From Diphasiastrum complanatum (taxonomy: Eukaryota > Streptophyta > Lycopodiopsida > Lycopodiales > Lycopodiaceae): DNA of 64,000 nt. The position numbers and the translations under genes are program-made. Below the pieces are notes generated by a model, which was given only the letters and a program-made list of their open reading frames with translations, searched no databases and had not been told where the DNA came from. Of the stretch, positions 6,755-60,300 are shown piece after piece. Every line of letters begins with the position of its first letter. Position 1 is the first letter of the stretch. Location of the stretch: NCBI GenBank assembly GCA_029204225.1, contig CM055097.1:75218773-75282772 (forward strand). The letters are read 5' to 3'.

Positions 6755-6817
6755 ATCCCTTGCGCACAATAATACAAAATTTGATTTTCTTGTAGTAATA
6801 ACAACCAACGTGTGATT

Positions 6818-7410: not shown

Positions 7411-7422
7411 CATACCTCTGGC

Positions 7423-32005: not shown

Positions 32006-32899
32006 GAAGTTAAACAGCAGTCAAAGGCCCAAACAATAAGCAACCCCTAGAAGGGGGTGCACTATACAAAAAACTATAGGACTCACAGCACGCCATACAA
32101 GGTGGCAGTCCAATATGTCTAAACAACAATAGCAAAATATACAACAAGGTGCAAACAAGCCATCGTCGAAAGAGGTGATGAAGAACCATAAAAAACCTGG
32201 TGATTGTGCACCAACCATATGAGTCATAAAACTGCCAATCTACACAAAAGCCAGAAGTGAAGTAAAGAACATGCCCAAGTAGGTGGATCTCCCAGTAGGA
32301 CAGTGTCAACCGTAAATGGGGCCAAAATGAACCAGCGGTCGAAAAGACGATGGACTTCCAACCACGGGTCTCTGGACAATTGAAAAAAAAGATGTTCAAC
32401 AAACTCCTCTTCGAACTTGCAGAGTGGAGAAAGGTGATCTGGAAGAAAGGGCCATTTAACCATGGAAGGAATTGGTGAGGATGTGGTAGGCTAGGTATAT
32501 GCGCTTACCAATAGGGAGCGAGCAAACAATCTTTAGTCTTTTACGTGACATGGTAGGAGAAACAGAACGTGACCAAGCCTAGTTACAGAAGTCAAAAAAA
32601 AGAGAAGGATGTCGACAAAGGTGAGAAGCTCAATAGCCGAGAAGGGATTGGTCAAGAGAGGGCTCCCACCCATCAGATTTGGAAAAGAAGGGGCAAATCC
32701 AAGGCCCAACATTAGAGGAGTTATAAATCCAAAAGGACCCTTTGTAAATATTCTTTTTATATTTTTTCTCAAAGTTTTCTTACACATGGACCAATCAAAA
32801 CAGTCAAATTTGAAATCTACGTAACGTAGCTCATAAAATTGGAAAAAAAAAAGGTTTTTTTGATAACTCTATGATTCGCCGTCGAAGGCAGCCCGCAAG

Positions 32900-33420
32900 C
32901 ATGCATGACATGCTATCCATAGTATAACATGCAATTTATCATTAAAAAATAGTATAAATTTTTAATCGTAGCTCCAATTGAGACAAAAAAAAATTATATC
33001 GTTGGAAAGTGCTCGACAAGAGCTTTTCAACGGTATCCTAGATGACCTACTTTTGAGCTACCATTTGAAAGTTATAGTAAATCAAAGTTTCTAAAAGAAA
33101 ACTCAATATCGAATCTGTGCAATCATAAGGTACCCTCTCACTAAGAAGGTGCTCTATCCATCCACATAAGTGATATTTGGTTAAAGCGTCCTCTATTTTT
33201 GTGCACAGAAGAGGTATTGGGTCTTTTCAAACTTTTGTCTATAATTTTTAGACAGTTGCTCGGAAGTAGGTCATGTAGGGTGTCGTTAAAAAGCTCTCGT
33301 CAAAGCTCTCGTCGAGCACTTTTTTCAACGATATAATTTTCATCTTAATCGAAGCTATAGTTTATAAGTTATACTATTCTTAATGAACTACAAACTGTAT
33401 ACATAGAATGGTTAAGCATC
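32900..33420. mobile_element. Fold-back / MITE-like element inside the LINE
   Basis: Arms of about 150 bp are inverted copies: 32915-33065 has ATTATATCGTTGGAAAGTGC and ATGACCTACTT, and 33245-33405 reads the same in reverse complement with ATTATATCGTTGAAAAAAGTG and ATGACCTACTT. The right arm carries a 12-bp internal duplication of GCTCTCGTC. No coding capacity. It lies between LINE segments that would otherwise be consecutive. Confidence 0.7.
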
Positions 33421-34360
33421 GAAAATAGTGCGGGAAAAAATGAAAAAGCATTTGGGCAGAAAATGAATTTATCCTGGTAATTTACATTAATAAACTTGTC
33501 AATCTATGTGGCATTCCTTATAGGATTTTTTTTGGATTCAGAATTTCTCTAATGGGCCAAGGACGAGGCAAAATTAAGGAGCAAATAAAGACCTTGAGAA
33601 CTAAAGAGCTGACATAAGGGCACGTGGATGATTTGGCTAAGCGTAAGTAGCCCCTTGCGGTCTAATGAAAGAGAAAATGTGCGATCGAGAAAAAAAAAAG
33701 GGGGAAAAGCTTGGTGAAAGAAAGAGGAGGTCCAGATGGAGTCGTTTGATGGAAGGAGCAGGGGGATTGGTCCAGGAGAGGAGAGGTGAAATTCCAAGAA
33801 AAGAGGCCAAATTTTTGAGGATAAAGGGTTCCTTGAACCTAAAGGAACCACCAAAGGACAGCAGCACAAAGAAAGAAGGAGAAGGTTGTAGAAGGGTGAG
33901 GGTAACTACGGACAAGGCCATGTAGTGAAGGAGAAAGAAATGCCAATGATGAGAGGGCATGACCAGGAAAAAAAAAGCGACGAGGACAAGGGAGTTGTTT
34001 TTAACAGCATCATCATGGATGCCCAGACCACCATCAAGAGGCAAAGTAGTACACACAGACCAAGGAAGAAAGGGGCATTTGACATCAAAGGATTTTAGCC
34101 AAAGAGCTATGGAGAAAGCAGGAGCAAGCAAAAATAGAAAAGAAAAAGGCAGGATAAGTAGGAAGAATATGATGAGCAATTAGAACCCTGGAGGCAAAGG
34201 AAAAAAAGCGGGGGTCCCAAAAGGCCAACTTGGAGGCGAAAGTTTGGAAGAACCAATCAAAACGTTGTCGGGGAGTAAGGGGAAGACCAAAGGGAGAGCT
34301 AAGCAAACGAGTAACCATGCCATGGGGCACCAGACGGATGCCGAGAGCAGAAACCCAAGA

Positions 34361-42215: not shown

Positions 42216-43198
42216 TGTTGGATTTATTTCCTCTAGTCACCTAAATCCCATTTTAATCTGCCTCCATTCATGCTGCATATTTACTCGCGTTGTCGCGCAA
42301 TCTGCATATTAACATGCAAATTCTCACAGGCGATGAAAAAATGAAAAGCAAAGGCTGACGTCACACCCTCTTCACGCTCACCCCATGCAGCTGCGCTAAT
42401 AGACTGGACAACGACTGCAGCCACCCACGATCTCCTACATACAGCACATCCACCATGTACTTTCTTCATTTGCACACCTGTAACATTATGTATATATGAA
42501 TACCATTTGTGTATTCATTAGTGAGAGAGAATGAAGAAGAGAAGCTTATCAGAGATAGACAAAAGTAGATGCTCTGTGCATTGATTCTTTATTTTGTTAG
42601 TAATAAGGTTCCATTCCTTTACAATTTGAATTAGCTTCGTAAAACATGCGGTTTTGCCCGCTATTGTCTTGTGCTCTACCACATTGTCAACATGTATATT
42701 TGATATACTTAATTTGATAGCAGCTTTTTGTTTAGCGTTCAGATATGTGTCAATAATGGTATGCTTATCATTATTCATTCTGTTTGATTTTTCTAGTTGC
42801 TCAATTTGGTAATATGTTTTTAGCATGACTAATATTTAGTCTTGTCTTTCGCAAATAATTCACGACCGATTGTCAGTCGAGCACAATCTAGCTCTTTGCA
42901 AATCATTTACGACACATAATTTGTCTTGCTATTCACGACAAATTATTCTTCTGGCGCTTCATTTATTAATGTTTGGCTACGTAATCAAGAACAATCATGA
43001 TTTCCATCACTAACGTTCTGTTCGTTCTGAGAGAGTCGTATAGCTCGTTCCGTTGCGCACGAAGGCTTTCTGTTCGAGTTCGTTTCTCATTCACGTTTCG
43101 TTTCTCGTTCGTGTTTGTCTTACCCCCTTTGAGCTAAATTTTTCGTTTCTAACATACGACACCTTTCTCAACTCTCGTTCATCTCCCTCTCTCCATCA
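42216..43198 (+). repeat. 5' LTR of copia element (983 bp)
   Basis: Begins TGTTGGATTT, homologous over about 90 bp to the LTR at 7423, and ends CCCTCTCTCCATCA directly before the primer site. Its last ~590 bp (from 42606) match 46141-46763, the truncated 3' LTR. The U3 region has CAATCTGCATATTAACATG, also shared with 7505-7530. Confidence 0.8.
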
Positions 43199-43210
43199 TG
43201 GTATAAGAGC
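43199..43210 (+). promoter_or_regulatory. Primer-binding site
   Basis: TGGTATAAGAGC, one change from TGGTATCAGAGC, directly after the CA end of the 5' LTR. The following 150-bp leader matches that after the LTR at 7957. Confidence 0.85.
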
Positions 43211-43354
43211 TATTTTCATAGCTTGATAAGCTTCCACAGTACAAGACTCTACTAGCCGATAGAGTAATTGTTTTCTTGTTCTGTATTTTCAACATCAGAT
43301 TTTTATACTTAAGTCACTGATAGTTTCTCCTATCACTTAGACTAACTCCTCCAC

Positions 43355-44098
43355 ATGGATTCCCAAGGGAAAGCCAGTCCTATCATGGACAAGCTTGATG
43401 GAGCCAATTACCATCTGTGGAAATTTAAGATAAAAACTGTACTAATGGCTAAAGAATTGTATGACGTTGTTACAGGTGTAGAAGGGAAACCCGATGCAGA
43501 TGACGCAACAATCGCCAGATGGAAGCTGAAGGATGGAAAGGCTTTCGCGTTGATCATCCTCAACATCACAGATACCCAAATCGACCATTTATCCGAGGCT
43601 CAGACATCGAAAGAAGTCTGGGACATCTTGAGCACACTATATGAAGTGCGAGATATACCTTCCAAGCTAGATCTCAGGAAGAAATTCTACTCCCTCAAGA
43701 TGACGAATGGTGATTCTCTACAAAATCACATTAATCAATTCAAGAACCTGCTAAGACAAATGGCCACTATCGGATCTGTCATTGACAATCAAGACATAGT
43801 GATGCAATTGCTTACAAGCTTGCCAAGCTCTTATGACAGCTGGATGATGATCATCACGACTCATCTAGAATTGACTCTTTCGAGAGTCATTACTATGTTG
43901 TTGCAGGAACACACGCGGAGGAATGAAGCCTCAAGTTCTTCAGCTGATTCTCACGCTTTATACACCAACAAGAGCATGACTAAGCAGAAGAAGAAGAAAG
44001 TCCCGAAGCAATCCAAGCCAGACCATAAACCAGCACACCACAAAGAAGAGTCGAATCCGCAGACGAAGAAGAAGCTGTTCTGCAGATACTACAAGTGA
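43355..44098 (+). pseudogene. Copia Gag (UBN2 type)
   Basis: Opens MDSQGKASPIMDKLDGANYH with the LDGxNYxxWK entry motif of copia Gag, then the UBN2 helices (AKELYDVVTG, SKEVWDILSTLYE, LDLRKKFYSLKM, QFKNLLRQM, VMQLLTSLPSSYDSW). A basic region (KQKKKKVPKQSKPDHK) leads to the knuckle CRYYK-stop-NNHEIQDC, where the second Cys is Tyr and a TGA falls inside the motif. In intact relatives Gag continues into protease without this stop. Forms the particle shell; here it is interrupted at its end. Confidence 0.92.
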
Positions 44099-44167
44099 AA
44101 CAACCACGAAATTCAAGACTGTCGGATACTACAAACAACGAACAACAACAAGGGGAAGTCAAATCAA

Positions 44168-45125
44168 GTGGCAAATGTAGCTGCAGAAGCTCCACATCCT
44201 ATTCAAGAAGCGGATCATGATGCCTTCATGACCAACCATCAAGGAGCATCTGGCGACAGTTCTTGGTTCCTGGATTCCGGAGCCACTCAGCATATGACTA
44301 GCCTCATTGGCTGTTTCGAGTCCTATACACCTTATAGTACCCAGAAATATGTCCACCTTGGTGACAATAGCACATAGGCTATTAAAGGTGAAGGCACTTT
44401 AAGATTAAGCTTTGCCAATGATCAGTCCAGGCTACTTTCTAAAGTCCTTTATGTACCAAATTTATCTACGAATCTACTCTCTGTAAGCATAATCACAGAT
44501 CTATGACACAGAGTAGAATTCGAATGTGATCAGTGTAAAGTAGTTGATAGGACAGGCAAGATCCTAGCCCTGGGAAAGAAGCATGGATACTTGTACAAAT
44601 TGAGTCATTGTTTTTCTGACTCTAGTCAGGCTCTCAGTACTTCAATTCATTCAAATAAAGATTTACTTTGGCATTATAGACTTGGTCATTTAAATCATGT
44701 TGTTGTACAACGAATGTCTAGACAATCTATTGTTTTTTATCTCGACTATCCTCGCGAAAGAGTCAAGTTATCTGTCTGTCAAGACTGTCTATTGTTAAAC
44801 AGACTAGGAAACCTTTTAAATCAAGCCATTAGCACATTGCTAGAGGATTGCTAGATGTTGTACATTCAGATTTTGTGGCCGGATGAAAAATCCTTCGCTG
44901 AAGGATGCCAAGTATTTTATAACCTTTATTGATGAATTTTCCAGAAGGACCATGGTGTATTTTATAAAGAAGAAATCAAAAGCCTTCAACTGCTTCAGAA
45001 TCTTCAAGGAGCACGCAAAGAAGGAGACTGGAAGGACGATTAAGGCCCTCAGGTCAGACAACGGTGGAGAATATATCTCTATTGAGTTTAAGGAGTACTG
45101 CCAAAGCCAAGACATTGAGCAGTAA
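44168..45125 (+). pseudogene. Copia protease and integrase core
   Basis: Frames 44168-44377, 44591-44854 and 44883-45125. Protease: WFLDSGATQHMT. GAG-pre-integrase: DLLWHYRLGHLNHVVVQRM and CQDCLL (HH-CC zinc pattern). Integrase core: AKYFITFIDEFSRRTMVYF, ALRSDNGGEYISIEFKEYC with second Asp. In-frame stops occur after NST (44375), near 44503, near 44854 and after DIEQ (45123). The region around the first catalytic Asp (VHSDF at about 44862) is out of frame. The stops are mostly single-base changes, so the copy is only moderately old. Confidence 0.9.
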
Positions 45126-45128
45126 TTC

Positions 45129-46140
45129 ATCACTTCTTGCAGTCCTCAGTCTAATGGCTTAGCCGAGAGGAAGAACCGTACTCTGGTTGAATCTGCCAAA
45201 TGTATGCTATCACATGCATCGTTGCCTAAGAGATTCTGGGCTGAAGCTGTCTCCACTGCAGCTTACGTCAATAACGGATGTTCAACCAAGGCCCTCTCAG
45301 ACAAGACACCCCACGAGGTGTGGACAAGTTCTAAGCCTTCTTTGAAGAACCTAAGAGTGTTTGGGTGCATTGCTTACGCGCAGATCCCAAAAGACACGAG
45401 GAAGAAATTGGACTTCCAAGGTCTCAAGACCATCCTAATCGGATGTACTTCATTTGATAATACTTATAAGCTATGTGACCCTGATACCCAACAAGTATTG
45501 TATAGCCGAGATACAGTCTTCATCGAGGATCAGTTCGTCGACCTCAAAGGCAAGGATGTTGCTCAAGAAGAACCCTCATCACTTGTCGTTGACACGACAG
45601 TCCGAGCTTCTGGCTCAGGCGTGTCTATTGTCGACCCACTTCGAGACAGCAAATCAGACGAAGATGTTGCTGCTACCCAGCAACAAATCCCAGGAGCGGT
45701 TCTTCAGTCGAATCCTCCCAGAAGATCAAGCCGAGTGCGCACACAGCCCACAAGATATACTCATGAGTCTATCTGTCTCTTGATACAGGAACCGATGATA
45801 GTCGAAGAGGCACTCAGCCAACCAGACTCTGATCTCTAGAGAGAAGCCATGGACAGAGAGTATTCCTCTCTGATTAAGAACCAGACATGGTCATTAGTCG
45901 AAGCTCCTATTGGCTGCAATATCATTGATTGCAAATGGATCTTTAAGATCAAATACAATGCCAACGGAGCAATTGATCGAAGGAAGACAAGACTGGTAGC
46001 ACGAGGATTCACCCAAATCCCGAATGTCGACTACAGTGAGACTTTTAGTCCAGTCATCAAACATTCATCGATCCGAATGCTCCTGTCTTATGTTGCGGCT
46101 GTTGATCTCGAAGTGCATCAACTCGATGTACTCAGTAAAA
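45129..46140 (+). pseudogene. Copia integrase C-terminus and RT N-terminus
   Basis: After the stop at 45123 the frame continues SPQSNGLAERKNRTLVESAK (catalytic Glu), KRFWAEAVSTAAYVNN, KTPHEVWTSSKPSLKNLRVF, GCIAYAQIPKDTRKKLDFQG, the hinge PPRRSSRVRTQPTRYTHES, a TAG at 45838, then the RT start MDREYSSLIKNQTWSLVEAP, CKWIFKIKYNANGAIDRRKT, RLVARGFTQIPNVDYSETFS, PVIKHSSIRMLLSYVAA, VHQLDV. Homology ends at 46140, where the 3' LTR begins abruptly. The RT active site and RNase H are deleted. Confidence 0.92.
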
Positions 46141-46763
46141 AGGTTTCATTCCTTTACAGTTTGAATTAGCTTCGTAGATCACACGGTTTCGTCCGCTATT
46201 GTCTTGTGCTCTACCACATTGTCGACATGTATATTTGATATACTCAATCTGATAACAACTTTTTATTTTGTGTTCAGATTTGTGTCAATAATGTTATGCT
46301 TATCATTATTCATTATGTCTGATTTTTCTAGTTGCTCAATTTGGTAATCTGTTTTTAGCACGACTAATATTTAGTCTTGTCTTTCGTGAATAATTCGCGA
46401 CTGATTATTAGCTGAGCACCGCGACTCATTCGCGACACATAATTTGTCTTGCTATTCGTGACAAATTATTCTTCTAGCGTTTCATTTATTAATACTTGGC
46501 TACGTAATCAAGAACGACTGTGATTTCCATCACTAACGTTCTGTTCGTTCTAATAGACATAGTCATGCTTACGGAGAGAGACGTATAGCTTGTTCCATTG
46601 CGAATGAACATACTTTCTGTTCGAGTTCGTTTCTCGTTCACGTTTCATTTCTCGTTCATGTTTTGTTTCTCGTTCGTGTTCGTCTTACCCCCTTTGAGCT
46701 AAATTTTCCGTTTCTAACATACGACACCTTTCTCAACTCTCGTTCATCTCCCTCTCTCCATCA
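46141..46763 (+). repeat. Truncated 3' LTR of copia element
   Basis: Homologous to 42606-43198 and ending CTCTCTCCATCA. It lacks the first ~390 bp of the LTR. An insertion of about 23 bp (ACATAGTCATGCTTACGG-like, near 46560) and an extra TTCATTTCTCGTTCATG unit distinguish it from the 5' copy. The deletion that removed the RT end also removed the LTR start. Confidence 0.85.
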
Positions 46764-46848
46764 TTATGGTACCAAGGAGATAGATTTTGAGGAAAATGGT
46801 TGTGTGTTGTGCGATTGAAGGCAATTGAAAGAAGATTAAGGATAGATC

Positions 46849-46922: not shown

Positions 46923-47519
46923 TTTATTTACAATTCAAATTCCAAAGAACTCCCACTAAGTCCTCTCAACTTAGTGCTTGAAATATTATCAAGAATTTTT
47001 TTTTTTCAGCTGAAGAAGTTGACGACCCATCTTTCTCATTAGAGTCTACTAGCAAGTTCTCATCCGAGCCGACATCCAATGTTGAGAGAAAATTTTGTTA
47101 TGTGGCTTTGCTACGTTGAAGCCGAGTCAAAGATGATGGTTGTGCTCTTAAATCCAAGACGTTCTTGCAAAATAGATATTGTTGACTTTCATAACATTAC
47201 AGGAGTTCCAAGGCCCAAAAGGGCTGTCTAAGAAATGCCACGTAAGAGAGAGAAAATCGTCAGATTTTAAAACTTCGATCGAGTTTTTGGTCTGCCTGCA
47301 CAAATCCGATGACTTGACCTCACTAGTAACGTATGTAGTTAACTGGAAGTTGGGTAGCCGCAATGCGTGGGGTCCATACTTCAAGATTCTATTTTCTACC
47401 ATTAACTAACATAACTTCTCATGTAAATGCAAATCGTATTGCACATCAAAGTTTTCTTTCCATCTACACAAAGCGTTCACATCAATGAAAAACAGTCTTA
47501 TCGATCTGAAAATCATGGC

Positions 47520-47800
47520 AAGAAACTTTGAATATTTTGGATCACAATGAGCGCCAACGTGAATCTAAATTTTTGCAATTCTGAAAATACAGAGTGTGTT
47601 GGATCAAATTGAGCGGTAAGGTTATTTCAAACTTTTGCAATTCAAAAATTTGCGATTTCAACACACATCTATTGAAAAACTATTTTGCTTATTTTGCTCA
47701 TAACCGCGAAGCATTGATTTTGCATATCAAGCAAGAAATATGGAGTGTGATGGATCAAAAAGAGCACCAAGGTCATTTCAAACTTTTCCAATTAATTTTT
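47520..47800. repeat. Short imperfect tandem repeats
   Basis: Three related phrases of the form TTGGATCAAATTGAGCG...TTTCAAACTTTTGCAATT occur at about 47538, 47598 and 47750. They are spaced about 60-150 bp apart and resemble decayed satellite monomers. Confidence 0.5.
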
Positions 47801-47883
47801 TTTTTTAATTAAGATGAGTTTTAATAGCTTACAAGATATATAACAAGTTGGTTTTCTACTAGATTAATCTATCGATTATTAAG

Positions 47884-50128
47884 ATGTCTAAATATCATCT
47901 CCATATTGATCTTCCCACAAAATATGCTCCACTGTCGAGAAAAAATCTGAAAGGATCCACCTTACCAGCTCACCAAAGGACGGAAGACAGGAAACATTGT
48001 GATCTATGGGTTGATGAAAGTTAGTAAAATGCAACATCCAAATTTTAGATTGGTCACACAACTCATACTGTTTTTGTGTGAAGAGTACAATGGTCTATTG
48101 GGTTATTGTGAAAGATTGAAAAGTTATGGCATTAGTAATTCAATGAAAAAAATCCATTGTTTGGAAAATATGTTGAATGGTTTGCTTACTGACTATTGAG
48201 AAAGAGAAACTATTTTTTTGCAAACAAAAGAAGAGAATGAAATCTTGAAGATAGATAATTCTCATTTGCAAGATATTATATTAAACCTTAACCAAGAAAC
48301 TGACAATATGAAACTAATTGTACAAACATTGCATACCTCATATTGTCAAATATATGTAGAAGTAAACACATTACGGAAGAAAATACTAAACAATAAGCGA
48401 AAAAGAGTTATTTTAAAAAGTATTGACGAGCTTTCAACAAGTGGGGGTCAACGGAAAAAAAGAATATATGCTTTCAAGTAAGATTATGTTTTAAACTATT
48501 CATGTGTTTTGTTTCATCTAGCACTCAATGGTTGTGAATTGTTTTTTTTCTAAATCTTATTTTTCTTTTGCAGATCAGCTTTAGTCACCAATGAAAATCT
48601 GAAAGACAAGGACATGATTGGAAAGTCTTTGAGTGCAGTACTTACAGCCAAGTCAACAACGAGTCTACTTGGAAATCAACGATATTCTCGAATCAAGTCC
48701 AAGATTGCAGAGGCCCTTATGGGCGAAGTCGGCAAGATCATTGACCGAAAATTGATACAGGGGAGTCCGAAAATAATATTTGGTGGTTGGCAGCTTTCCA
48801 GGTTTAAATCTATTCTATTGAGTACTAGCAACTAATTCATTTCAAGAATTAATGGTTTTGTGTTTTAAGCTAATATTGGTTTGTTATTATAGGTCTGAAT
48901 TCAATTCTCCTAAAATAGTTCATGATTTTGTGTTTCAAACAGGTTTTAAAAGAAGATCATGACATTCTATTTTGGATTTTTAGTAAAACAGAATATCCAG
49001 AGATAATTAAGAATCATATGAGCGACACACCACTCAATGTTCCTGGAATAAGTGATTTTAAGGTGGAATGGCATTTGGCTGGAGACCTGAAGTCGTTGAA
49101 GTGCATGTTCAACATCTCACGTGGAGCAAATTCAAAACATCCATGCCTCTATTGCATGAAAACTACACATGACATGTCGAAGAGCATGAGAGTTTCAAGG
49201 GATATAGAAGATCCGACTTGGAAACCAGTATTACCGATTCCGCTTAAAAATGTTCACATTTGTACACTACATGGAGATGTTAGAATTATCGAAAAATTGA
49301 TATACCTTCATATTTGGCTTGCTTGGAATACTAAGCTAGAGTCATTAGCTAAAAAGGCAATAGGTCGATTGGAAGAAGTTTTATCAAAAGCGGGACTTCA
49401 TAAAGGACACGTTAAAATACAAAAGGACGAGAAGCTTTCAGGAAAAACGGGAAACATCCCATGCAAACCAAGTATAGGAGGATCCAAAGCTCGTCGTTTC
49501 TTATCAAATCATTCCGAAAAACCAACTAAAATCCAGTACTCAATTTGATAGATGTACTCAATGCCACAAAGGATTTTGAAGAAAAAGGAACAACGAGGAT
49601 TAAAAAAGTTGAAGTCTGGACAAAGCTTGACAACATGGTCAAATTGCTCAGAAAAGATAAACTATCCGATACTGATGTCCTACTAATTGAGAAATCAACA
49701 ATTGAGTTTGTGGATGCAGTTAAAGACGCCTGGGGTGAAGATCATATTATGCATTATATGGTAAATGTCTTTTCAATGTAACTAACTCTTCGATTTATAA
49801 TCTCATTGCACATATGCTAAATTTAAAATGATTAATATGACAATATTTGTATCTCTGATATTGCAGCACATTCTATGACATCATGCATCATTTTTTGCAA
49901 AAGCTTACGGCAGTCTAAGTATTTGGTCATCACAAGGAATGGAGAAATCGCATTGGCAAGCCAGAGCAGCATTTCATCGAAATACACAACACTCTAGAAC
50001 ATCTCAAAAAAATAGTTACATCATCCAGCTATTTCAATGGTTCTACAGGCGTATTCAAATCCGATATAAAACTAGACAACAAATTATCAGAAATTCAGAA
50101 AGACGTGCAAATTTATAGACGAAAATAA
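47884..50128 (+). pseudogene. Transposase-like gene of a conserved uncharacterised eukaryotic family
   Basis: Plus-strand exons. 48218-48478 is coiled-coil (EENEILKIDNSHLQDIILNL) and splices in frame over GTAAGATT...TTTTGCAG to 48575-48800 (GKSLSAVLTAKSTTSLLGNQ, IKSKIAEALMGEVGKIIDR, FGGWQLSR). 48944-49540 carries DFKVEWHLAGDLKSLKCMFN, GANSKHPCLYC (Cys pair), PIPLKNVHICTLHGDVRIIEK and KPSIGGSKARRF. 49545-49760 continues to HIMHYM/GTAAAT. The last exon from 49867 reads YGSLSIWSSQGMEKSHWQAR and QLFQWFYRR. From memory this order matches large uncharacterised eukaryotic proteins; the conserved GDLK Asp and GMEKSH Glu suggest a DDE-like fold, which is inference. Stops at 48199 and about 49877, and a missing block near 48800-48940, indicate a decayed or internally deleted copy. 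Confidence 0.6.
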
Positions 50129-50546
50129 TATTGATGCAAGACTCAACCCATAGTAATTTTCATGATATCAGACGAAAAGAGTATATGTATTATATGGCAT
50201 CATTTCAAGTACAATGCAAGGCAAAATCATTGTTTCTCCTTGTCTTTAACGATCAGCTTTGTTGTGTGGTCAAGAAGAATTTTTTTTCTATCATATGGAT
50301 CTAGAAAATCAATGGTCTTCTTTTGCTCAAGTTGATGTATCCGGAGAAAATAGCTTAGGAAAAAGACCTTTTAGGAACTTCCTCAGATACATAGCCAAAT
50401 ACTTTAATGACAATGTCTCTCTTCGCAAAAATAATTTTATATGTATTTTGAGGGTATTTATGCCCGTTCGAGAAATAGGATAATGCTTTAATTGCCATTA
50501 TTATTGTCGCAACATCTGAAGAAAATTTGCTATGATGAATGCAAAT

Positions 50547-51822
50547 CTATTTATTTACAAAGCACTTCAAATAATTGGACAGGGATGAAATCCTTTGTCG
50601 TGATCCCTGGCCTTCCCTCAAATATCTCTGCCTTGTTACAAAGGCATCCACCTCAACAGTAGCCTATAAAATACGAGCAAAGGTCACATGTCTTGTAAAA
50701 CAAAATGACTATATTTGAATAAAAATATCATTAAGATAAAACCAGATTTACCTACTAGATCACGCTCATCAGCTTCAATAAGTGCAGCAGTATGTAGATC
50801 ATGACCAGCAACAATGGTCGTCAAAGCATTAGATGGACTAGTTTCCGAAGACTGTGACACATATCTGCTCCAGATTTTCAGAAATTCCTCCTCACCGGGC
50901 AAATTTGCCTGGTATGCCCTGCTTTCAGACATGATTGACTGCAGTGCTTCAGTCCCATCCATCCATTCATCTTCGTCTTTGTAATCAATAGAAGCACTTA
51001 GATCATCATCACCGTCGAGATCTATGAAGTCCTCGAATTCTTTGATGAAATTAGACAAAATTGATAATATTTCATCCTCCCTCAAATCAAAAACATCTCC
51101 AACATCATTCAGTGAGAGGTATGCGACACTATTCATGTAATACACTAGCAAATCGAGGAGAGTCTTGGTTTTGTCATATGGATTCACGTCAGATAAGGAA
51201 GAAATGGACAATGCACGAGACTTGGTTGGGTCGTACATTGAAACCAATCTTGCCTCCTTGTCAGCACCCCAGACGTCATCAACAATAGCTGACTCTGATA
51301 TCACAGAATCAGTTGATGATGAGGCACCCTCAATGTTAAGCCTCGAAGTTCTTGTCTCATTAGGAATAAGAAAAAAAAGATAAAACACAAAGCCCATGCC
51401 TTCCTGCAAAAAACGACATGATCGATTGTGCTGGTCACAATGGACCACACGTTTAAGATCACTCACGATTTTCGTGAATCGTTGGTTGTGGCTTTGCTTT
51501 GAAGATGGTTGGGCAAGTACCAGGTCATGGAAATGGATAAATCGTAGATTATCCATGATCAACATAGACTGATTCAGACTATCATAATACTCCTTATACA
51601 ACACTGAAAAATATGATTTATATTCTGATTCAAACCTCTCAATATCAAAAGACATATTAAATACGTCTTATAATGACCTATGTAGTTACCAACATCGGAT
51701 TCAACGAGGAAGGCGTGCAAAGCAGAATCAAAAGTATTAGAGGATGAAGCGGCCATCTCGAAAGTATGACCAATATGGCCGAGTATCGCTACGACGCGGG
51801 GTGGCATGGAGTCAGAAGACAA
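50547..51822 (-). CDS. Acidic protein of unknown function, divergent partner gene
   Basis: Minus strand. Exon A 51694-51822 (ATG opens SSDSMPPRVVAILGHIG), candidate intron 51638-51693, exon B 50752-51637 (RFESEYKSYFSVLYKEYYDS ... FIDLDGDDDLSASIDYKDED ... GEEEFLKIWSRYV), and a candidate exon C 50547-50663 (ATVEVDAFVTRQRYLREGQG, then stop) behind TATTTTATAG. Exon B is open for about 300 codons in an AT-rich setting, which supports coding. The protein is acidic and helical-looking, with no motif I recognise. It is transcribed away from the H3-like gene from a shared promoter, with a TATA box at 52022-52029. The splice sites of introns 1 and 2 are not ideal, so the model is approximate. Confidence 0.5.
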
Positions 51823-51936
51823 TCATGACTTCCTCACGTGATGGCGATATTGGCGAATGACCTGATATCGGAACGACGCGAGGGATCTTAGATCGTCTAG
51901 AATCTCTGAAAGATTCTCACATGGTAGCGATACTGC
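51784..51936 (-). promoter_or_regulatory. Leader stem-loop motifs of the minus-strand gene
   Basis: Four copies of a ~19-bp motif (consensus TATCGCYAYSACGCGAG) at 51917-51935, 51864-51882, 51833-51850 and 51784-51801. Read in the direction of the minus gene they run forward, reverse, forward, reverse with starts about 0, 53, 85 and 135 bp apart. Adjacent forward/reverse copies can pair. The last copy encodes the start PRVVAIL of the protein. Confidence 0.65.
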
Positions 51937-52021
51937 AAAGAAATAGAACTGTTCACACACAATGAGATATAGGGAGTGAAAATCCAAAACTTAGCGAAAT
52001 GTTTTAACTGATCAAACAACA

Positions 52022-52487
52022 TTTATATAGCTAAAACCAAGAAAATCCAAGCCGTACACTCATCGATCCAACAACGGAATCAGATCTATGGCGCGTAGTA
52101 CAACCGTCCACACGTGCGAGACCACACGTGCTACAATACGCGTCAATCTGCCATTCGCCCACGTGCCCACACGTGCCAGAACACACGTCACTAAACCATT
52201 GGACCACGTGGACACACGTGCAAGTTTCACACGTGCAAATACATAGGTGTAGGTCCCACATGTCAGGTACTGATTGGGCCACGTGACCACACGTGCGAGC
52301 CTATACGTGCGAGAACACACGTCACTGATCCATTCGGCCACGTGTCCCCACGTGGGATCCCACACGTGTTGATCCAGATGTGCAGTTTTACATGTGCGTG
52401 TACAGACGTATGGTTCCACATGTCAGCTATTGACTGGGCCACATGTCGCTGGTATTCACACGTGCCAATTTTTCTCCCCTATATAAG
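52022..52487. promoter_or_regulatory. Bidirectional promoter with 13-site G-box array
   Basis: TATA boxes stand at both edges: TATATAAA on minus (52022-52029) and TATATAAG on plus (52480-52487). Between them CACGTG cores start at 52111, 52125, 52160, 52170, 52205, 52215, 52230, 52280, 52290, 52339, 52349, 52363 and 52459. Four pairs are exactly 10 bp apart (52160/52170, 52205/52215, 52280/52290, 52339/52349), one helical turn. Near-miss cores (CACGTC, TACGTG, CATGTG) fill the gaps. Longer phrases also repeat (GAACACACGTCACT at about 52178 and 52312; CCACATGTCAG at about 52256 and 52416), so the array grew by tandem duplication. In plants CACGTG is bound by bZIP and bHLH factors (for example ABA- and light-response regulators). 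Confidence 0.75.
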
Positions 52488-52563
52488 TCCATTCCCGGGG
52501 ATTATACAGGTTTTCGCATGATTTGCTAGCACGTTTGATTGCATCCATACGAAATGCATTCGT

Positions 52564-52779
52564 GATATCGCCATCATGCGAGCGACCTCCTCCCCATGCC
52601 TATTCCTTACACCCTCTTGCGTCATAGCAATATTAGCTTGACTTCCCCAGTATCGCCATCACGCGAGTCCCTGTCTCTCCCCGCCTGACTCTGCCACTCT
52701 CTCGCGTCGTAGTGATATCATGGTTAGAGTTCTCAGTGTCTCTTCTGCTGTGTCTCTGTCCTCGCGTAGTATAGATATT
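52564..52779 (+). promoter_or_regulatory. Leader stem-loop motifs of the H3-like gene
   Basis: Five copies of the same ~19-bp motif as on the minus side: GATATCGCCATCATGCGAG at 52564 (forward), 52615 (reverse), 52650 (forward), 52700 (reverse) and 52761 (reverse, ending 9 bp before the ATG at 52788). Starts are about 0, 51, 86, 136 and 197 bp apart, close to the spacing in the minus leader. They lie in the expected 5' untranslated region, about 80-300 nt after the TATA box. Confidence 0.65.
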
Positions 52780-52787
52780 CGGCCTCA

Positions 52788-53203
52788 ATGGCTCGGACGA
52801 AGCAAACCGCTAGGCTTACCAGTTTCGTTCAACCGTCCCGTCCCCAGACATCTGAACCCGTACGTCCGCAAAGATGCGGTAGACCTAGCCGTCCATGGTT
52901 GAGGGACATCATGGCCTTGCAGAGGAGCACCAAACTTCTGATCCCGAAAGTAGCCTTCTACCGGGCTGTGAGAGAAGTTACACAAGACATGACCACCCAT
53001 CTGCCCTATGCAGTGAGGTGGAATATCACTGCATTGGAGGCCCTCCATACTACATACGAGGATTTCCAGACAAAATTGTTTGAGGATTTGATGTTGTGCT
53101 CCATTCATGGCAAGAGGGTGACACTGATGCCCAAGGACATGCTTCTTGTCATGAGGCTTCGAAACACCTATGACAACATTTTTAACTGGATTCACACAGA
53201 GGC
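52788..53203 (+). CDS. Histone H3/CENH3-like domain
   Basis: From the ATG at 52788 the protein opens MARTKQTAR, identical to canonical H3, then diverges (LTSFVQPSRPQTSEPVRPQR), losing K9, K14, K18, K23, K27 and K36; the only tail Lys is K4. The histone fold follows: WLRDIMALQRSTKLLIPKVA, FYRAVREVTQDM, a long loop 1 (TTHLPYAVRW), ALEALHTTYEDFQTKLFEDL, MLCSIHGKRVTLMPKD, MLLVMRLRN. LLIP and the RW before helix 2 resemble CENH3; loop 1 is about 4 residues longer than in canonical H3. In chromatin H3 pairs with H4. The frame stays open to 53282, but H3 homology ends near RLRN; a basic linker and a protease domain follow in another frame. Leader motifs and a TATA box lie upstream. Confidence 0.75.
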
Positions 53204-53385
53204 AAGTTCGTGGAAAGGGGCCTGTCCCACCCCGCAAAAAGAGAAAGCAAGCACAACCCAAGCGTTCGCAACCCAAGCCTAGGTCTCCCAGCTCTTCACC
53301 CTGACCTCCTCCCATTAGAAAAGATCTGGCTAGTACATCCGCAATTCCACTGGTTGAGAGTCCTCCCGTAACCCCTGATCTTCAA
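53204..53385 (+). pseudogene. Basic linker between H3-like and protease domains
   Basis: In the frame shifted by one base this encodes TQRQVRGKGPVPPRKKRKQA, QPKRSQPKPRSPSSSP, a TGA, then PPPIRKDLASTSAIPLVESP and PVTPDLQ running directly into the protease exon at 53386. KKRK-type clusters fit a nuclear localisation signal. So the H3-like and protease parts look like one protein broken by a frameshift and a stop. An intron could bypass both: AG/GCAAGT at 53203 (GC-AG type) or TC/GTGGAA, with the acceptor CATTAG at about 53316. Phase fits the second donor better. Confidence 0.5.
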
Positions 53386-54643
53386 GTGCACGATTCTCCT
53401 TCTATACATGAGGATGACCTAAATACAGTGGTAGACATGATTGTTTCTGATTTTGATGCAACTGATAAAGAGTTGCACATCAGACTTCCAAATGAACCTA
53501 AAGACACATTTTTTGATTATGAGAGGTACATTGATTTTGACCTGTATATAGCCAAGAAAATAAATGATCTCGAAGCGGAGTTTATGTTTTGTATAGACGA
53601 TATTAATTTTGCAATGCATATCAAAGACCCACATTGTAGGGAGCTAAAAGAGAAGACCTCATATATCTCAGACACAGTAGTTGAATCTGCTTGTGCATAC
53701 TATGTACATAAATATACATATACAATCACGAAGGAGATTTTTGTTGTATCTCCATTTTTTGGGCATCTGTTGAATAAAGAGAGGAAAGCCAGAAGGCTCT
53801 TCAGGCACACCAACAAAGAGGCATCAATGTTCATCATTCCATATTGTTCAAAGTAAGATAGTTTCTTCTTGTAATATCTGTATTCTGTAAGATTTTTCTT
53901 TTGGAAACTCTTATAGATTCTAGTAATTCATTGCTTGTCTCTTTCTGACAGCAAACATTGGAGTGTGCACGCCATATTCATGAAAGTGGATTCAATTGGA
54001 AGCTGCACACTTGTGTGCATGACAATGAATTCTTTGCATGCCACCCATTCCATGATTAAATCCATGTACAAAAGGATGGTGGAGCTCTTCCCCAGGCCGT
54101 ATGGGTTGGTTGTAAATACTAACATAGAGGTTGTTGATGCAAAGGTAAAAGGAATCTTTTTACGTATTTTATTTGCATGATGGCATGTAGTTTAGAATTA
54201 TATTGAATTATAATCTAACAAATTTTCGCTGTGATTTCTCAGTCTTCGCAACAAGACGATGCTTTCAACTGCGGATGGTATTCAATCTGGAATGTTAAAT
54301 CGTTCTTGGATTTGTATATGGTGCAACCTCCAGATGCTAGTATCCGTGAGGTATTTTTTTCAATGTGGTAGTATCATGATGATATATTGTTAACTTTGTG
54401 AATTTATATATTTTAAAACATTGGCTAATACATACATACAGTCGATATTTTTTTTTGCAGTTCCAATGTCCTGAGGTATCAACAAATGCGATTCATCAGT
54501 ATCGGCATGAAATGTTGGAAATTTTACTATCATGTGCAAGGCCCTACAAGCATGAAGGTGCCTCGGATGAACCTGCCAGGAGATCTGTGGATGAGGTTAC
54601 AGTGCTCGAGGATATGCCTCAGGCACCTTTGATTGAAATGTAA
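53386..54643 (+). CDS. C48 (Ulp1/SUMO-protease-like) cysteine protease domain, four exons
   Basis: Exons about 53386-53852, 53952-54144, 54243-54350 and 54461-54643, joined by GT-AG introns (GTAAGATA...CTGACAG; GTAAAAGG...TTTCTCAG; GTATTTTT...TTTTGCAG) that keep one frame. Exon 1 ends FIIPYCS, exon 2 begins KHWSVHAIF with the catalytic-His motif, exon 3 has SSQQDDAFNCGWYSIWNVKS with the Gln-x5-Cys pair (Cys codon at 54270), exon 4 holds the C-terminal helices. Ulp1-type enzymes cut SUMO or similar modifiers; in plants such domains also occur in DNA transposons. The catalytic Asp is uncertain: MNSL stands where YDSL is expected, though an Asp occurs earlier (KVDS). It probably forms one protein with the upstream H3-like domain. 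Confidence 0.75.
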
Positions 54644-54854
54644 ATATAGTTCCGACAGACACATAGAAATATATCATCACATGATGATCCATAGAACAAT
54701 AGATAGGCAAATAGAAAGTGGGCTATTACTGAATGCCACAAATATATTATATCGATTTCAAAAAGAATGTACATTTTTCAAAATACTAAATACAAATTGC
54801 TTGATGAAATCTTGAAGTCATTTGAGACTTCTTTGTATTCCTTTTTTTTTTTAG

Positions 54855-55227
54855 AAGTACATTGATGTTGCTCGTCTATCATCCCAATTTATAAGGATGA
54901 TGAGCGTGTATTTGGAGAGGTTTCTCAAGGAAAAGGAGCGATCATGAGAATGAGTGAGTCCTTCAAGGAGAAGGTGAATAATTTTTGCATTCTTAACAGC
55001 GAAGAAATGCAAAAGTGGATTTTGAGATACAAAGAGGCCAAGGCTCATAAACAAACCGCTCGAGCCACTTTCAAGAGAGGGCATAGAAGACACCGCCTGA
55101 CCTCGCCCTTCTACCCAAGGACATGACACTTCATTGGCTACGTGATGCCCTTAGAGAAGCCTCAACAAACAACGAGGAAGTAGTAGAGAGAGCGAGAATC
55201 TTGCAAGGCGGTACGATTTTCATGTAA
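54855..55227 (+). pseudogene. 3' exon of the protease gene, frameshifted
   Basis: Behind an acceptor with a long T tract (54841-54854) the frame reads KYIDVARLSSQFIRMMSVYL and ERFLKEKERS, then in neighbouring frames SESFKEKVNNFCILNSEEMQ, FKRGHRRHRLTSPFYPRT and LHWLRDALREASTNNEEVVE, RARILQGGTIFM, stop. The helical, charged character and the smooth continuation suggest the C-terminus of the same protein, with two or three small indels. Homology is not known to me. Confidence 0.45.
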
Positions 55228-55489
55228 GATATGTACATCATTCACATGTTAAGCTATTTGTACGTGTAATTTTCTACATGTTTGTTATATCCCTAACACA
55301 TTTTGTTCTTTTTAATCTTCATCCACTTTTTATCCAGTTCTGGAGTTTTATTTGTGTTTCTACAAAGTCTGCAAAAATACTCGAGAATCACTCAACAAGT
55401 GGCTTTGACATATCGGACATCATCCGACATATCGATGTCCCCGACAAAAGACTTCGGCCATATCGATGAAAGACACTTATTGTTCCACT

Positions 55490-56173
55490 TGTTATGAAGC
55501 TAAAGACTTGCCCTAACTGTTTTGCAAGTAAATTTCTGGGAAGTCCTAACTGGATGGATGCCAACGCATATGGCCAATTGGCTATTGCGATCAGTGACCT
55601 AATAGTTGTCCTATTGGATACCGTTAATTGCTTAGTATAAATAGATGATCATCAAAGACTTCTATAACTCTCTTTCTCCTTAAAAAGTTTTTTTCAGAGT
55701 TCATTAGAGTACTGTTATTCATGCTTATTGCTTATCAGCGAGACTGAGTTTTTAGTTACATAGAGATAGCTTAGAGTACGTTGCTTCTATCCGTAATTGT
55801 TTTGTGCTCTCATCATCTGATTTGTACATGCTACTTACTGAATCATGCTCACAAGAATGATTGCTTCTTTGTTCAATATTGATAGGCGTAGTCAAGAATG
55901 TATGCTTCTCTGTGATAATTTGTAACTGATAAATCTCTTGTTGTCTTGTCTAGTATATTTAGTACTTCATTGTTTGGCTACAAAATCGGTTTAGTGCTAA
56001 CGATTTCAAAGTTGGTTACTAAAAGATTGAACGTGACTTGTCATTATGCTTTGTTCAATATTGATAGGCGTAGTCATGCATTAGGAAAGAAGGCTAAATT
56101 TCGCTGCGCTCAATAAGTCGCTCACACTCTTCGACTTGTTGAATCGACTCACTTCACCTCCCTCTTTCCAACA
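55490..56173 (+). repeat. LTR-like sequence, possibly solo LTR
   Basis: Starts TGTTATGAAGC and ends CCTCTTTCCAACA, so TGTT/AACA termini. Internal phrases (TTGTTTTGTGCTCTCATC, TTGTCTTGTCTAGTATATTT, CTTCATTGTTTGGCTAC) resemble the R/U5 part of the copia LTR at 42660-42980. No matching target duplication was found (CCACT versus CATCA). A phrase TTGTTCAATATTGATAGGCGTAGTCA is repeated inside (about 55871 and 56051). Confidence 0.6.
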
Positions 56174-56573
56174 CATCATGTTGCTCAATGTTGATCCAAC
56201 CTCCAACCGTGTGCTCAACCATGTGCACTCCCTCGAGCTATATATGTGTATCATGTGTCAAAAATTCAAATTTTTGAACCTTGCAAAGATCTACCACGAC
56301 CTACATGCAGGTTGCACACTACCAAATTACTCTCAATCTACTCGGATTTGATGAGCTATGAAACACAATTTGGAAATAGGCAAGAGCTCTTGTACACAAA
56401 AAGTAATCTAAGGCATGAATTGGCTAATGCAAATAGGCCTGCTACTCACTCGTGGGAACATGCTCCACACATGTGTGCTTTACATATGTACATTAAAACG
56501 TAAAATGATCAAGCTGAATTTTGCATATTTTTCACACATATAGCTTGATAAGTGTGCTAGTTCTCTCCAAATG

Positions 56574-57096
56574 TTAAGTAGCCAAGAATAGCTTTTCAAG
56601 TGGATCCTTTGGCATGCATTTGTTGAGAAAACCAACCAATAAACTTGAGATTGCAACAAGATCACCGTAGCCATGACAAGACTTCCTTGACTGAGAACCA
56701 TTTCCAAGTACCAAGAAGAGCTTTCCACCATTTGAGCTCTTTTTCCATTGATTTCTTTTATCCTTGAAGAACATGATTGATCCCAAAGCTCCTCCTCCTT
56801 GAAAATAGCTACAACTCCATGAGAAAATCAAGAGTCCTTCTTGACTCATAAGGATCACAAAGATCCATCATCATGTTACCAAGATCTTGAGAATTAGACA
56901 TATCGAGATTGGCAAGACTATGTATGCTAAAATGGCAAAGAGTTTGCATAATATCTTTATGCTTGATTTTCATGCTAATCTCAAATCTAATGAGGCTAAA
57001 TACATCATTATGAATATGTGTGTCCTTAAAGGAAGATTCACTTATTCTCATAATGTGTTTACGAATTGCCTCACAACATGTAAAAACAACCATCAT
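56574..57096 (-). pseudogene. Relic related to the 442-codon ORF
   Basis: The frame 56809-57096 contains HIMRISESSFKDTHIHNDVF, SLIRFEISMK, which aligns with LLMRISEASKVDTYIHKQVV, SLIEMEM in the ORF at 13750-15078. The following minus-strand sequence (56574-56808) has several frames without known motifs. It indicates a second, more decayed member of the same non-autonomous family near the LTR-like sequence at 55490. Confidence 0.55.
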
Positions 57097-57099
57097 CCC

Positions 57100-59394
57100 A
57101 CAAAATTGACATACCTAAGGAGAGGAAAATTCAATGCTACTCGACTAAACAATGACACAACATCAAAAAATGTATTAATGAGTTGAGCATTTGCTAGTGA
57201 AAAAGATAAACAAATATCATGCATAGCTTGATGAGGTTTTATGAGGGATATCCTTTGAAAATGAGGAGTCGTTTGGATAATTAAAATTACATTTTTTTGT
57301 CTAAGTGCACCCATTCTTACCACCCAAGGCCAAGTCCACCATTGTTTAAAAGTTGGGAATGTTTTAAGGGTGGGAATGCTACTTAGTGTCCTCGATTTAA
57401 GAGCTCAACGTCAAAGGAGAAACCACCGTTATTTAGTCATTCATTTTTTACTAGCTCCTAGAAGATGTACTTAAACACGACAATAGTATCAAACTTGCTT
57501 TTAATTTTTTGACATTATGTAAATTTTCATGGAAACAAATCTTTGATGGATTTGTGATGATGTACCTCTAATAGAATGCAAGCCAATGTCACAAAACCAA
57601 TGATAGCACACTTTCAAATGATTTATGAGCTATCAAAGTGACATTAAGTACATTCATCTACTTATTGCCAAACAAATGACAAGGAACATATTGTCATTCA
57701 TTTGATTCAAAAAGTGTACATGCAGAGAAGACCAAGACTATTATAAACAAAGAGGGATTGTTGATATTGGGTGATTGAGGAGTTGAACCTCAACTAAGAC
57801 AATAATCTTCTCTTCCAAGTCACCCATCGATTTCAAAGAGCTGACCTATTGACACTCTTTGTATCAGCAGACAAACATTACATAGAGAGGTAGCATAGCA
57901 GAAGCCATAACATTGTTTTTGTCTTTATTCAACAATGACCTTCTAAATAATGAAAGTTCACTAGACTCAATGTAAAGTGAAACCCAATACTATAGGGAAC
58001 TAGCATATGAAACGCCATAATATTGTTCTTATGTCTTAGTTCAGCAAAAAATTCCTCACAAATGAATTAGTTACGATTGAAATGAACTTGACATGATTTT
58101 AAGGTAAAAACATTATCGATCCCTTGCACACAATATATCTTATGAAAACCCTTGCATGGGTCCACTCCCAAATGTTTTCAGGAGTTTAGTTGCCTGTTTC
58201 AAAAGAAACTCAGCTTCTCATTGTTTTGCCATGAAAAACCAATTTTGATCATGTGAGCCATTTCACAACTATATGGACATTTCTCTCCAATATGTGCCCC
58301 CTGTTAAAGTAAGTAATTTCATTCCATTCAGACCCATCAAGGGATGCCCAGGAGAGAGAAAATTTACATGAAAACTTTAAAACCTACTAATAAATTGCCA
58401 GAGTTCATCCTTACATGTCCACAACAACAAATAGAAAAAGCCAGAATCACTTTGTTGACGATACACCACCACTCTATAAATAAAGGCATCGTCCTGCATT
58501 AAGTTTATAATTATGAACACTCAATAGGTCGGGCTTTTATAATTGTATTGAACTAGACAAAGTTTAGCCAACTATTCTGAAGAATGAACATCCAAAAAGT
58601 TAAAACGTGCAATTTCTCAACGTTCATTCCCTTTAAAGCGCACACAAACTCCGTACACCAGATTGTAAACTAGCCACACTTTTAAGTCACAATCTTAATA
58701 CCAATGATTTCCATAAAGTATCACTTGATGTTATCAGGAGCTACCTGAGAAAGAAAGTTTTGAGCGCTAAAAACACGTATATTTGACTAATACAAAGCAC
58801 CGACCAATGATGTAATATGTTCACAAGATTGTAATTACATTTGGGATAGAAAATAAAACTGATTTCAGTTCTCAAAAAAATAGGTAGAAACTAAATGAAG
58901 TCTACTTTATATTCTTCCTTGACTATGATCTATAACCTCACTAATGTCAATTCAAATAGAGGTCAATTTTCCAAAATTTAGGAAGTCCATGTTCTGGAAA
59001 ACAAAATGGGGACATGACTGAAATATAAATATAAATATAAACGGAAAGGGCTTGTGGGAAATTATAGATTAGCTTGGAGATGGCCTTGAGGCACATGAGG
59101 TACCACGCTGCCTGTGCCAAATAGGTGAACTAGCGCAGAATTTTTAAGCCTGGGAGAAGTGCCTGATATCAACTGGTCTACCTCCCTGGAAAGTGGCTCA
59201 TATGCGTCGTCTACACCAAGTCGCAGTTCCCACTAGCTCTGCCTCAGAGTTTTGATTAGGAAGTTATCAATACCAGTGGTAGCTGGGAGGCTAAATCAGG
59301 TGCGCAAACCAGACAGTGGATGAAGTGGGTTATTGCACGCATTTCATAAGCTGTACTTAATACTTCCTATCTTGCAGGTGAATGTGATCTGGGG
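57100..59394. other. Non-coding interval
   Basis: No supported gene on either strand. AT-rich sequence without terminal repeats or RT motifs that I can define. Repeated phrases around AGCATAGCAGAAGCCATAACATTG (57888) and TAGCATATGAAACGCCATAATATTG (58000) suggest a diverged duplication. Confidence 0.4.
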
Positions 59395-59628
59395 GAGATA
59401 TCAGTAAGCTTCACACCTTCACGTCTGCTGGTGCAAACTTTTTAACTCCACCCTTTCTTCCATCAAAGTCTGTTCTTTGATATGTTCGTTTCATTTCTTC
59501 AGCTGAATAGGAGATATCGGGTAAGCTTTCACAACTTCACGTCTGCAGGGTGCAAGCTTCTTAACTCCACTTTTCTTCCATCAAAGTCTGTTCTTTGATA
59601 TGTTCGTTTCATTTATTCAGCTGAATAG
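59395..59628. repeat. ~117-bp tandem duplication
   Basis: Two adjacent copies, 59395-59510 and 59511-59628, share GAGATATC, CTTCACGTCTGC, CTTCCATCAAAGTCTGTTC and end CAGCTGAATAG. They differ at a few positions only. Confidence 0.9.
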
Positions 59629-60300
59629 GCGTCTCCGCTGTTCAGCAGCATCTCAATCCGCCACTTGAGTTTGTAATCTAGATCTTTGCCAAGGCACTTA
59701 AATATAGCAGTCAGTTACGACTAGGGAGCCACTTACTCGTACTGTGTTGAAAGCATTGTTCTGAGATTTTTTATTTTGATCGCTTTGAAGACACCCTCAA
59801 GGAGACGCAAGGAACTTATCGTCTTCTCCCTCAACACACATGTACCAAGTTTCAAAAATCACTTATTACTTTAGATACCCGCAAATATATGTGATAGACC
59901 TGCGGAAAGAATCACCTACGAGGTAGGCTAGCAAACGGACAGGCAGGCCAAAAAACATGTGCACTGGCCTTGGTTGGGATAAGTGCCTGGTAAGTGGTTG
60001 GTGCATTTAGAAAAAGATCCATTCTAACAAGCAGAAACTACAGATATGCGCGAAATAACAAGGGGGGGGTCGCTTCTGCTTAGGTAACAAAATTAAACGG
60101 AGGTAGTAGCACAAGAAGCGGATCCAGTTTCTTTATCATGCTCCTGCTGCTACTCCCAAATCGTAACCAAACCAGCTATCACCACATCATCAGAGAAAAC
60201 ACCCCAGATCCTTGTTGCCTCATCACCAACTTTGAATGGTGTGTGTGCTACAAGGGAGGGCGAGCGATCTGCTCCGCTATGCACAAGAAAACAAATTGCG

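Follow-up and report, generated by a model that had tools for sequence, protein, structure and literature searches.

A Histone H3–Protease Fusion Carried by a High-Copy Mobile Element of Diphasiastrum complanatum

Comparison of many genomic copies supports the existence in Diphasiastrum complanatum of one gene that joins a histone H3 domain to a C48-like cysteine protease. The gene lies on what looks, by its ends, like a high-copy DNA transposon of approximately 10 kb. We analyzed a window of 64,000 nucleotides (positions 75,218,773 to 75,282,772 of contig CM055097.1, assembly GCA_029204225.1), which is the whole stretch examined and the frame for all coordinates below that are not assigned to another copy. 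The initial annotation had described an H3-like domain joined to a Ulp1-type protease. The fusion proved to be real, but it is not a single plant gene, being instead the cargo of a mobile element. The H3 part has at least 150 matches in its own 1.74-Gb genome, all with at least 72% identity among the best 150 of 6946 candidates, and the window sequence is one copy of a high-copy repeat.

The H3-family histone domain spans positions 52788 to 53180 on the plus strand. The open reading frame (ORF) to which it belongs (52788-53282, plus strand) matches the Pfam Histone family PF00125 with an E value of 1.5e-21 (score 77.3 bits; family cut-off 26.4), and its best matches in the PDB are H3 chains (E 7e-22 to 5e-21, with residues 10-126 aligned). 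These matches bear out the H3 fold with a MARTKQTAR start that the initial annotation had read from the window. A profile built from 13 copies of the H3 part reached an E value of 7e-24 against the PDB, where the next hits in the ranking were the CENP-A chain cnp1 and H3.3. AlphaFold models were of low confidence (pLDDT 35 for exon 1 and 49 for the H3 part) and were left unused.

Most of the residues through which an H3-family protein would be expected to contact DNA, H4 and a second H3 are conserved, with R63, K53 and K56 as exceptions. In the four copies compared, using H3 numbering and reference contact positions, the DNA-side residues R40, R42, R49, R52, K64, R72, R83, K115, R116 and T118 are conserved in all four, as are F104, D106, C110, H113, D123, L126 and R129 on the side facing H3 and H4. 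R69 and K122 are conserved in three copies and altered in the fourth, and R63, K53 and K56 are altered in every copy. The tail is more heavily changed. K4 is conserved in 39 of 41 copies; in all four copies compared, K9 is replaced by Leu, and K14, K18, K23, K27 and K36 are replaced or gapped.

The placement of this domain between H3 and CENH3 is mixed. Compared with three plant CENH3 sequences, it carries the CENH3-type residues P63, T75, W84, L89, S107, L119 and L130, and its loop 1 is four residues longer than that of H3. It also carries the H3-type residues K64, Q76 and D77, with P121 in two of three copies, and at sites that separate Arabidopsis CENH3 from H3.1 the H3-type residues are about as numerous as the CENH3-type ones (9-10 versus 10-11). 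The fold of copy L013 is identical to Arabidopsis CENH3 at 45 of 92 aligned sites and to H3.1 at 45 of 90. In a tree with five reference sequences, the transposon branch is 1.0 substitutions per site long and forms a split with Arabidopsis CENH3 at a support of 71. The transposon protein resembles plant CENH3 and canonical H3 in its histone fold and its H4 and DNA contact residues, and resembles H3 in its MARTKQTAR start, but differs from both in its shortened tail without K9 and K27, its longer loop 1, its C-terminal fusion and its carriage by a mobile element.

Downstream of the histone domain, the gene continues through a Lys/Arg/Pro linker (53181-53304), which reads PRKKRKQAQPKRSQPKPRS in other copies, and through the remainder of exon 1, which is predicted to encode the N-terminal part of the protease (53305-53852). 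The complete exon map is 52788-53852, 53952-54144, 54243-54350 and 54461-54643, all on the plus strand, with introns bounded by GT and AG. Exon 2 carries the putative catalytic His (in KHW) and the Asn, exon 3 carries the Gln-x5-Cys pair, and exon 4 runs to a TAA stop codon. The splice sites are conserved in most aligned copies, with one site lost in each of several (for example L003, L010, L015, L016 and L017). The spliced second half presents KHW, MNSL and QQDDAFNC, which is the motif order of Ulp1 proteases. This exon map and these motifs agree with the initial annotation, which had reported a Lys/Arg/Pro linker and an intron-containing protease with a Gln-x5-Cys pair (QDDAFNC).

Assignment of this half to C48 is based on one Pfam match and the order of the motifs, since a profile of the protease half found nothing significant in the PDB. 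One of six spliced copies scores above the cut-off for Pfam Peptidase_C48 (27.1 versus 20.7 bits, E 4.6e-6), and the other five gave no match to that family. The protein is like the Ulp1/SENP SUMO proteases of family C48 in its HW...N...Q-x5-C order and in the one copy above the Pfam cut-off; it differs in having Asn in place of the catalytic Asp and a histone at its N-terminus. The catalytic residues are otherwise largely conserved, with His present in 36, Gln in 34 and Cys in 27 of 38 copies. However, Asn stands in place of the Ulp1 Asp wherever the site can be read (37 of 37 copies). Eleven of 38 copies have lost the Cys; eight of these have Tyr instead, among them three of the six readable members of the divergent set L054-L060. 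Both the Asn and the loss of Cys make protease activity uncertain. Methylation sites of the CTG (CHG) type frequently decay from G to A in plant repeats, and the TGC-to-TAC changes sit in this context, so they may reflect the decay of silent copies.

In the window itself, the two halves are out of register. The initial annotation placed the H3 part off-frame relative to the protease and noted one TGA, and this is what the alignment gives: two linker gaps, one of 2 nt and one of 3 nt (a net 5 nt), separate the H3 frame from the protease frame, and an in-frame TGA lies at 53302-53304. Neither gap occurs in 13 other aligned copies, save for a larger deletion in L014. The histone-protease gene of the window is, by its predicted reading frame, dead.

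Other copies retain a single frame. We searched with the 357-residue first exon of L013 and obtained 118 matches from 114 of 9197 candidates scored. Stop codons were read through, and some matches are not independent, being two fragments of a single copy or one stretch that occurs on two contigs. Fifty-six of the 118 extend from residue 1-2 to residue 349-357, and nine of those 56, the query included, are free of stops. With looser limits, 108 matches begin no later than residue 95 and end no earlier than residue 240, and 82 satisfy the stricter bounds of residues 60 and 300. The latter figure answers a test fixed in advance, namely whether relatives carry the H3-like ORF adjoining a C48 domain, because these 82 of 118 matches join both parts in one frame. 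In L012 the whole spliced frame is open for 512 amino acids, although this copy has a 5-residue gap in its histone fold and its catalytic HW reads HQ. Because the parts share one frame elsewhere in the family, the simplest reading is that the family began with the fusion, and the frame offset of the window copy would be damage.

Derivatives with only the H3 part seem to exist on contig C3. Twenty-seven of the best 150 matches to the H3 part end at residue 130-131 and fall in two blocks of this contig (18.5-21.7 and 29.9-30.1 Mb). Of the C3 places, we read L018, L019 and L021, which overlap in part; a satellite-like repeat rich in GCCATGTAGGC comes after the H3 part of L018 and of L019. Such copies suggest a capacity of the H3 part to spread as a passenger or in the absence of the protease. 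The C3 blocks could represent a centromere or pericentromere, or local amplification.

Patterns of substitution indicate that the fused gene has been maintained. Using parsimony, we assigned substitutions to the branches of copy trees and compared nonsynonymous (N) and synonymous (S) changes with the same mutation types placed at random. For exon 1 we used 41 copies, which are 44 less one member of each of three near-identical pairs. On internal branches the H3 part has an omega of 0.34 (53 N and 70 S where 83 and 37 are expected; p 2e-9), and the rest of exon 1 in the same 41 copies has an omega of 0.48 (p 9e-6). Earlier versions of the analysis gave internal values of 0.57 with 37 copies and, with 44 copies, 0.38 on long and 0.61 on short internal branches. 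Because every copy was recruited through its protein similarity, the omega estimates are biased toward low values; terminal branches share this bias and lie clearly above the internal ones, yet still below 1 (0.90 for the H3 part and 0.77 for the remainder of exon 1). Among the five other frames of the whole exon, both forward frames and two of the antisense frames give internal values of 1.28-1.49 (1.08-1.78 by region). The third antisense frame gives 0.51, which we attribute to third positions that coincide with those of the true frame. An antisense ORF at 52785-53381 was considered as a gene and rejected, as two antisense frames have an omega of 1.28-1.30 and the 0.51 of the third reflects these coinciding positions.

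The case is weaker for the exons that carry the catalytic residues. Before filtering, exons 2-4 of 39 copies gave an internal omega of 0.79 (p 0.054). After 12 badly aligned copies were dropped, by a filter that was chosen after the first result, the 27 remaining copies gave internal values of 0.39 for exons 2-3 (p 0.005) and 0.39 for exon 4 (p 0.008), with the other forward frames of exons 2-4 at 1.0-2.4. It therefore appears that source elements held the H3 and protease parts jointly under purifying selection, with less certainty for the catalytic exons.

The element that carries the gene is represented in the window by a remnant at 47195-54888, on the plus strand, which retains its left end and has lost its right end after position 54888. 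Position 54888 was itself considered as the end of the element and rejected, since other copies run on with sequence that is missing from the window. The left terminal inverted repeat, CATTACAGGAGTT, occupies 47195-47207 on the plus strand. Six copies with unrelated flanks have the left end CATTA-N-AGGAGTTCCAAGGCCCAAAAGGG in common (three of the six depart from it by one or two changes), and the right ends in L009, L010 and L063 read AACTCCTCTAATG, that is, CAAAACTCCTCTAATG. Together, the left and right sequences define 13-bp inverted ends, CATTAGAGGAGTT. Both ends are in place in one copy, which runs from 17887388 to 17897366 on contig C8 (9979 bp). No target duplication is evident in this single two-ended copy, whose flanks, ...ATATCAAA and CATATTCC..., lack a shared 3-bp repeat. 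With no transposase recognized by profiles and no sign of a target duplication, the element is classed by its ends.

From the left, the element contains pieces of a plus-strand gene, a minus-strand ORF, an array of CACGTG motifs and the H3-Ulp1 gene. The upstream gene, a candidate for the transposase, lies in pieces at 47957-49781 on the plus strand (fragment ...HLAGDLKSLKCMFN...HPCLYC..., with the match at 47957-48478). It occurs within 12 kb of 40 of the 118 H3-Ulp1 matches, and in 38 of these 40 it is 5′ of the H3 gene and on the same strand, 23 of them at a distance of 4.4-5.6 kb; the remaining two correspond to L015 and L016. This count keeps duplicates and uses 150 of 151 upstream-gene matches from 9952 candidates. 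Searches with the ORF pieces gave no match of note in Pfam, NCBIfam or the PDB, nor did a typed composite against Pfam. The layout of this gene may resemble that of RAG1/Transib/CMC.

The divergent ORF (50684-51667, minus strand, 327 amino acids) is common to L012, L013, L016 and L020, and has no significant match in Pfam, NCBIfam or the PDB. It includes an acidic stretch, DLDGDDDL...YKDEDEWMDGTEAL, and its relatives were found inside the family only. Acidic stretches are typical of histone chaperones. Other copies contain an additional minus-strand gene to the right of the H3-Ulp1 gene, which is absent from the window. In L009 this right-end gene is present in pieces (6552-7857, minus strand), and no convincing family match was obtained for it.

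Between the divergent genes, at 51991-52480, CACGTG occurs 13 times in 490 bp, compared with a mean of 0.1 in 1000 shuffles, and a TATA-like box, TATATAA, follows at 52480-52486 on the plus strand. Across 48 upstream loci, a few of which are the same place, the 850 bp that precede the H3 start contain a median of nine CACGTG motifs, with none in four loci, and TATATAA is retained in 36. The array may act as a promoter (through G-boxes) or as an address of the kind used by VANC proteins.

Several other features of the window were recorded. To the left of the element, at 42599-46764, is a copia-type long terminal repeat (LTR) retrotransposon with a gag match (E 3e-39) and LTR-like direct repeats about 3.5 kb apart. 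An 845-bp sequence at 32710-33554 has ends similar to those of the histone-carrying element (CATTAGAGGAGTT ... AATTTCTCTAATG) and may be a short, non-autonomous member of its transposon group. Copy L020 (G000:C6:71318500-71327500) is 99.8% identical to window positions 50668-59672 over 9 kb; the likeness includes sequence to the right of the element, and the copy is on the same contig at a distance of about 4 Mb, so that either a recent segmental duplication or an assembly duplicate is involved. A 118-bp tandem duplication with 90% matches is present at 59394-59629. Rfam and tRNA scans of the window returned nothing, and 60 pattern matches among viral contigs yielded no confirmed case.

Ulp1 domains are known to recur in plant transposons (PMC13317346, PMC2528002). 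The KIU (Kaonashi) Ulp1 genes reside in VANDAL MULEs of Arabidopsis and have relatives in melon, rice and grapevine, and the same 2026 review gives the function of Ulp1 domains in plant transposons as unknown (PMC13317346). In VANDAL elements, the VANC proteins bind to short motifs that recur in the non-coding DNA of their own element, and they induce a loss of DNA methylation there (PMC5735166). Among CACTA-ULP elements are five grapevine Cactavine families, and rice has Tnp2-ULP1 proteins (PMC2528002).

The new element shares features with both groups. Like the VANDAL elements with KIU and VANC, it is a multi-gene element with short motifs repeated in non-coding DNA (PMC5735166, PMC13317346), and like the KIU genes and the VANC genes that bear a Ulp1 domain, it has an accessory gene in which a Ulp1 domain is joined to a second domain (PMC5735166, PMC13317346). 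It differs from KIU and the VANDAL non-TIR MULEs in the H3-fold partner and the 13-bp inverted ends. Like CACTA-ULP elements (PMC2528002), it would be a DNA transposon with a ULP1-like region. It differs from CACTA (En/Spm) elements in having CATTA rather than CACTA termini, in its histone domain and in the absence of a 3-bp target duplication from the one two-ended copy. Pfam found no MULE transposase in the ORF pieces or the composite and no TNP2-type transposase, although with fragments as the only queries these are weak tests. By the transposase and terminus tests, then, the element is neither VANDAL/KIU nor CACTA. We found no report of a histone within a Ulp1 transposon gene in the open-access literature searched, and the word "histone" occurs 0 times in the accessible part of PMC13317346.

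What might such a protein do? Our favored proposal, which we hold tentatively although it could well be correct, is that the element encodes a protein of about 517 amino acids, consisting of an H3 variant, a basic linker and a Ulp1-type protease, that acts on the chromatin of the element itself, probably against silencing. The basic linker resembles a nuclear localization signal and would give nuclear entry, and the histone part would pair with H4 and so bring the protein into or onto nucleosomes. There its tail would retain K4 and lack K9, K14, K18, K23, K27 and K36; with K9 and K27 lost, we propose that H3K9me and H3K27me, which are silencing marks, could not be placed on it. The protease, tethered in this way, would strip SUMO-like modifiers from nearby silencing or deposition factors. 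The net effect would be that the chromatin of the element stays expressible, an outcome that VANC proteins of VANDAL elements reach by another route, and the CACGTG array is a possible address. The earlier idea of a product that is incorporated like H3 and cuts SUMO-like modifiers would fit the residues and the selection. A fuller version is more doubtful: nucleosomes of the element would resist silencing because they contain its own H3 variant, with K4 kept and K9 and K27 unmethylatable, and the tethered protease would remove SUMO from silencing factors.

Alternatively, the histone part may tether the transposition machinery to chosen chromatin, such as CENH3 chromatin or nucleosomes with free H3 sites, and so provide a safe landing, with the protease trimming a SUMOylated host factor. 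The CENH3-like loop 1, together with P63, T75, W84, L89, S107, L119 and L130, speaks for such targeting, as does the dense clustering of H3 matches in the two C3 blocks (18.5-21.7 and 29.9-30.1 Mb). However, the C3 copies that we read are H3-only pieces beside a satellite-like repeat and may have arisen by local amplification, and matches to the whole of exon 1 are scattered over many contigs with no single centromere-like block. We consider targeting unlikely.

It is similarly improbable that the protein is a decoy, which would soak up H4 or a chaperone of H3 or CENH3, and thereby disturb the deposition of silent histones, without forming a stable nucleosome. Retention of the H4-facing residues alongside a tail that is mostly gone would suit a decoy, and a fused domain of about 380 amino acids may hinder nucleosome packing. 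Nevertheless, the DNA-contact arginines and the MARTKQTAR start have also been retained, and both would be superfluous for a pure decoy.

Another possibility to which we give little weight is that the H3 fold serves as a DNA-binding module in an accessory transposition protein, with the protease reduced to an inactive scaffold. Asn at the position of the catalytic Asp (37 of 37 copies), loss of Cys in 11 of 38 copies and recognition of C48 by Pfam in one of six spliced copies all point in this direction. Against it, His, Gln and Cys persist in 36, 34 and 27 of 38 copies that are for the most part decayed, the TGC-to-TAC change falls in the CTG (CHG) context that is often mutated in methylated plant repeats, and exons 2-3 appear to be under selection after filtering. 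Chance capture of a histone fragment as a functionless passenger is very improbable and was already disfavored: useless gene pieces are frequent in transposons, most copies are decayed and terminal omega is 0.77-0.90, but internal omega in the true frame is 0.34-0.48 and the splice sites and contact residues are mostly retained.

The histone H3–protease fusion on this mobile element is, as judged from its sequence, real, selected and odd, and we infer its function. Placing a Ulp1-like domain and a selected histone in one protein points to chromatin as the substrate and gives a protein that can be tested. It suggests an unfamiliar way for mobile DNA to act on host chromatin. An H3 without K9 and K27 that is joined to an enzyme could also serve as a chromatin-writing tool at chosen repeats. 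If the proposal of action on the chromatin of the element is true, a selfish element bringing along a histone of its own would represent a new kind of chromatin conflict.
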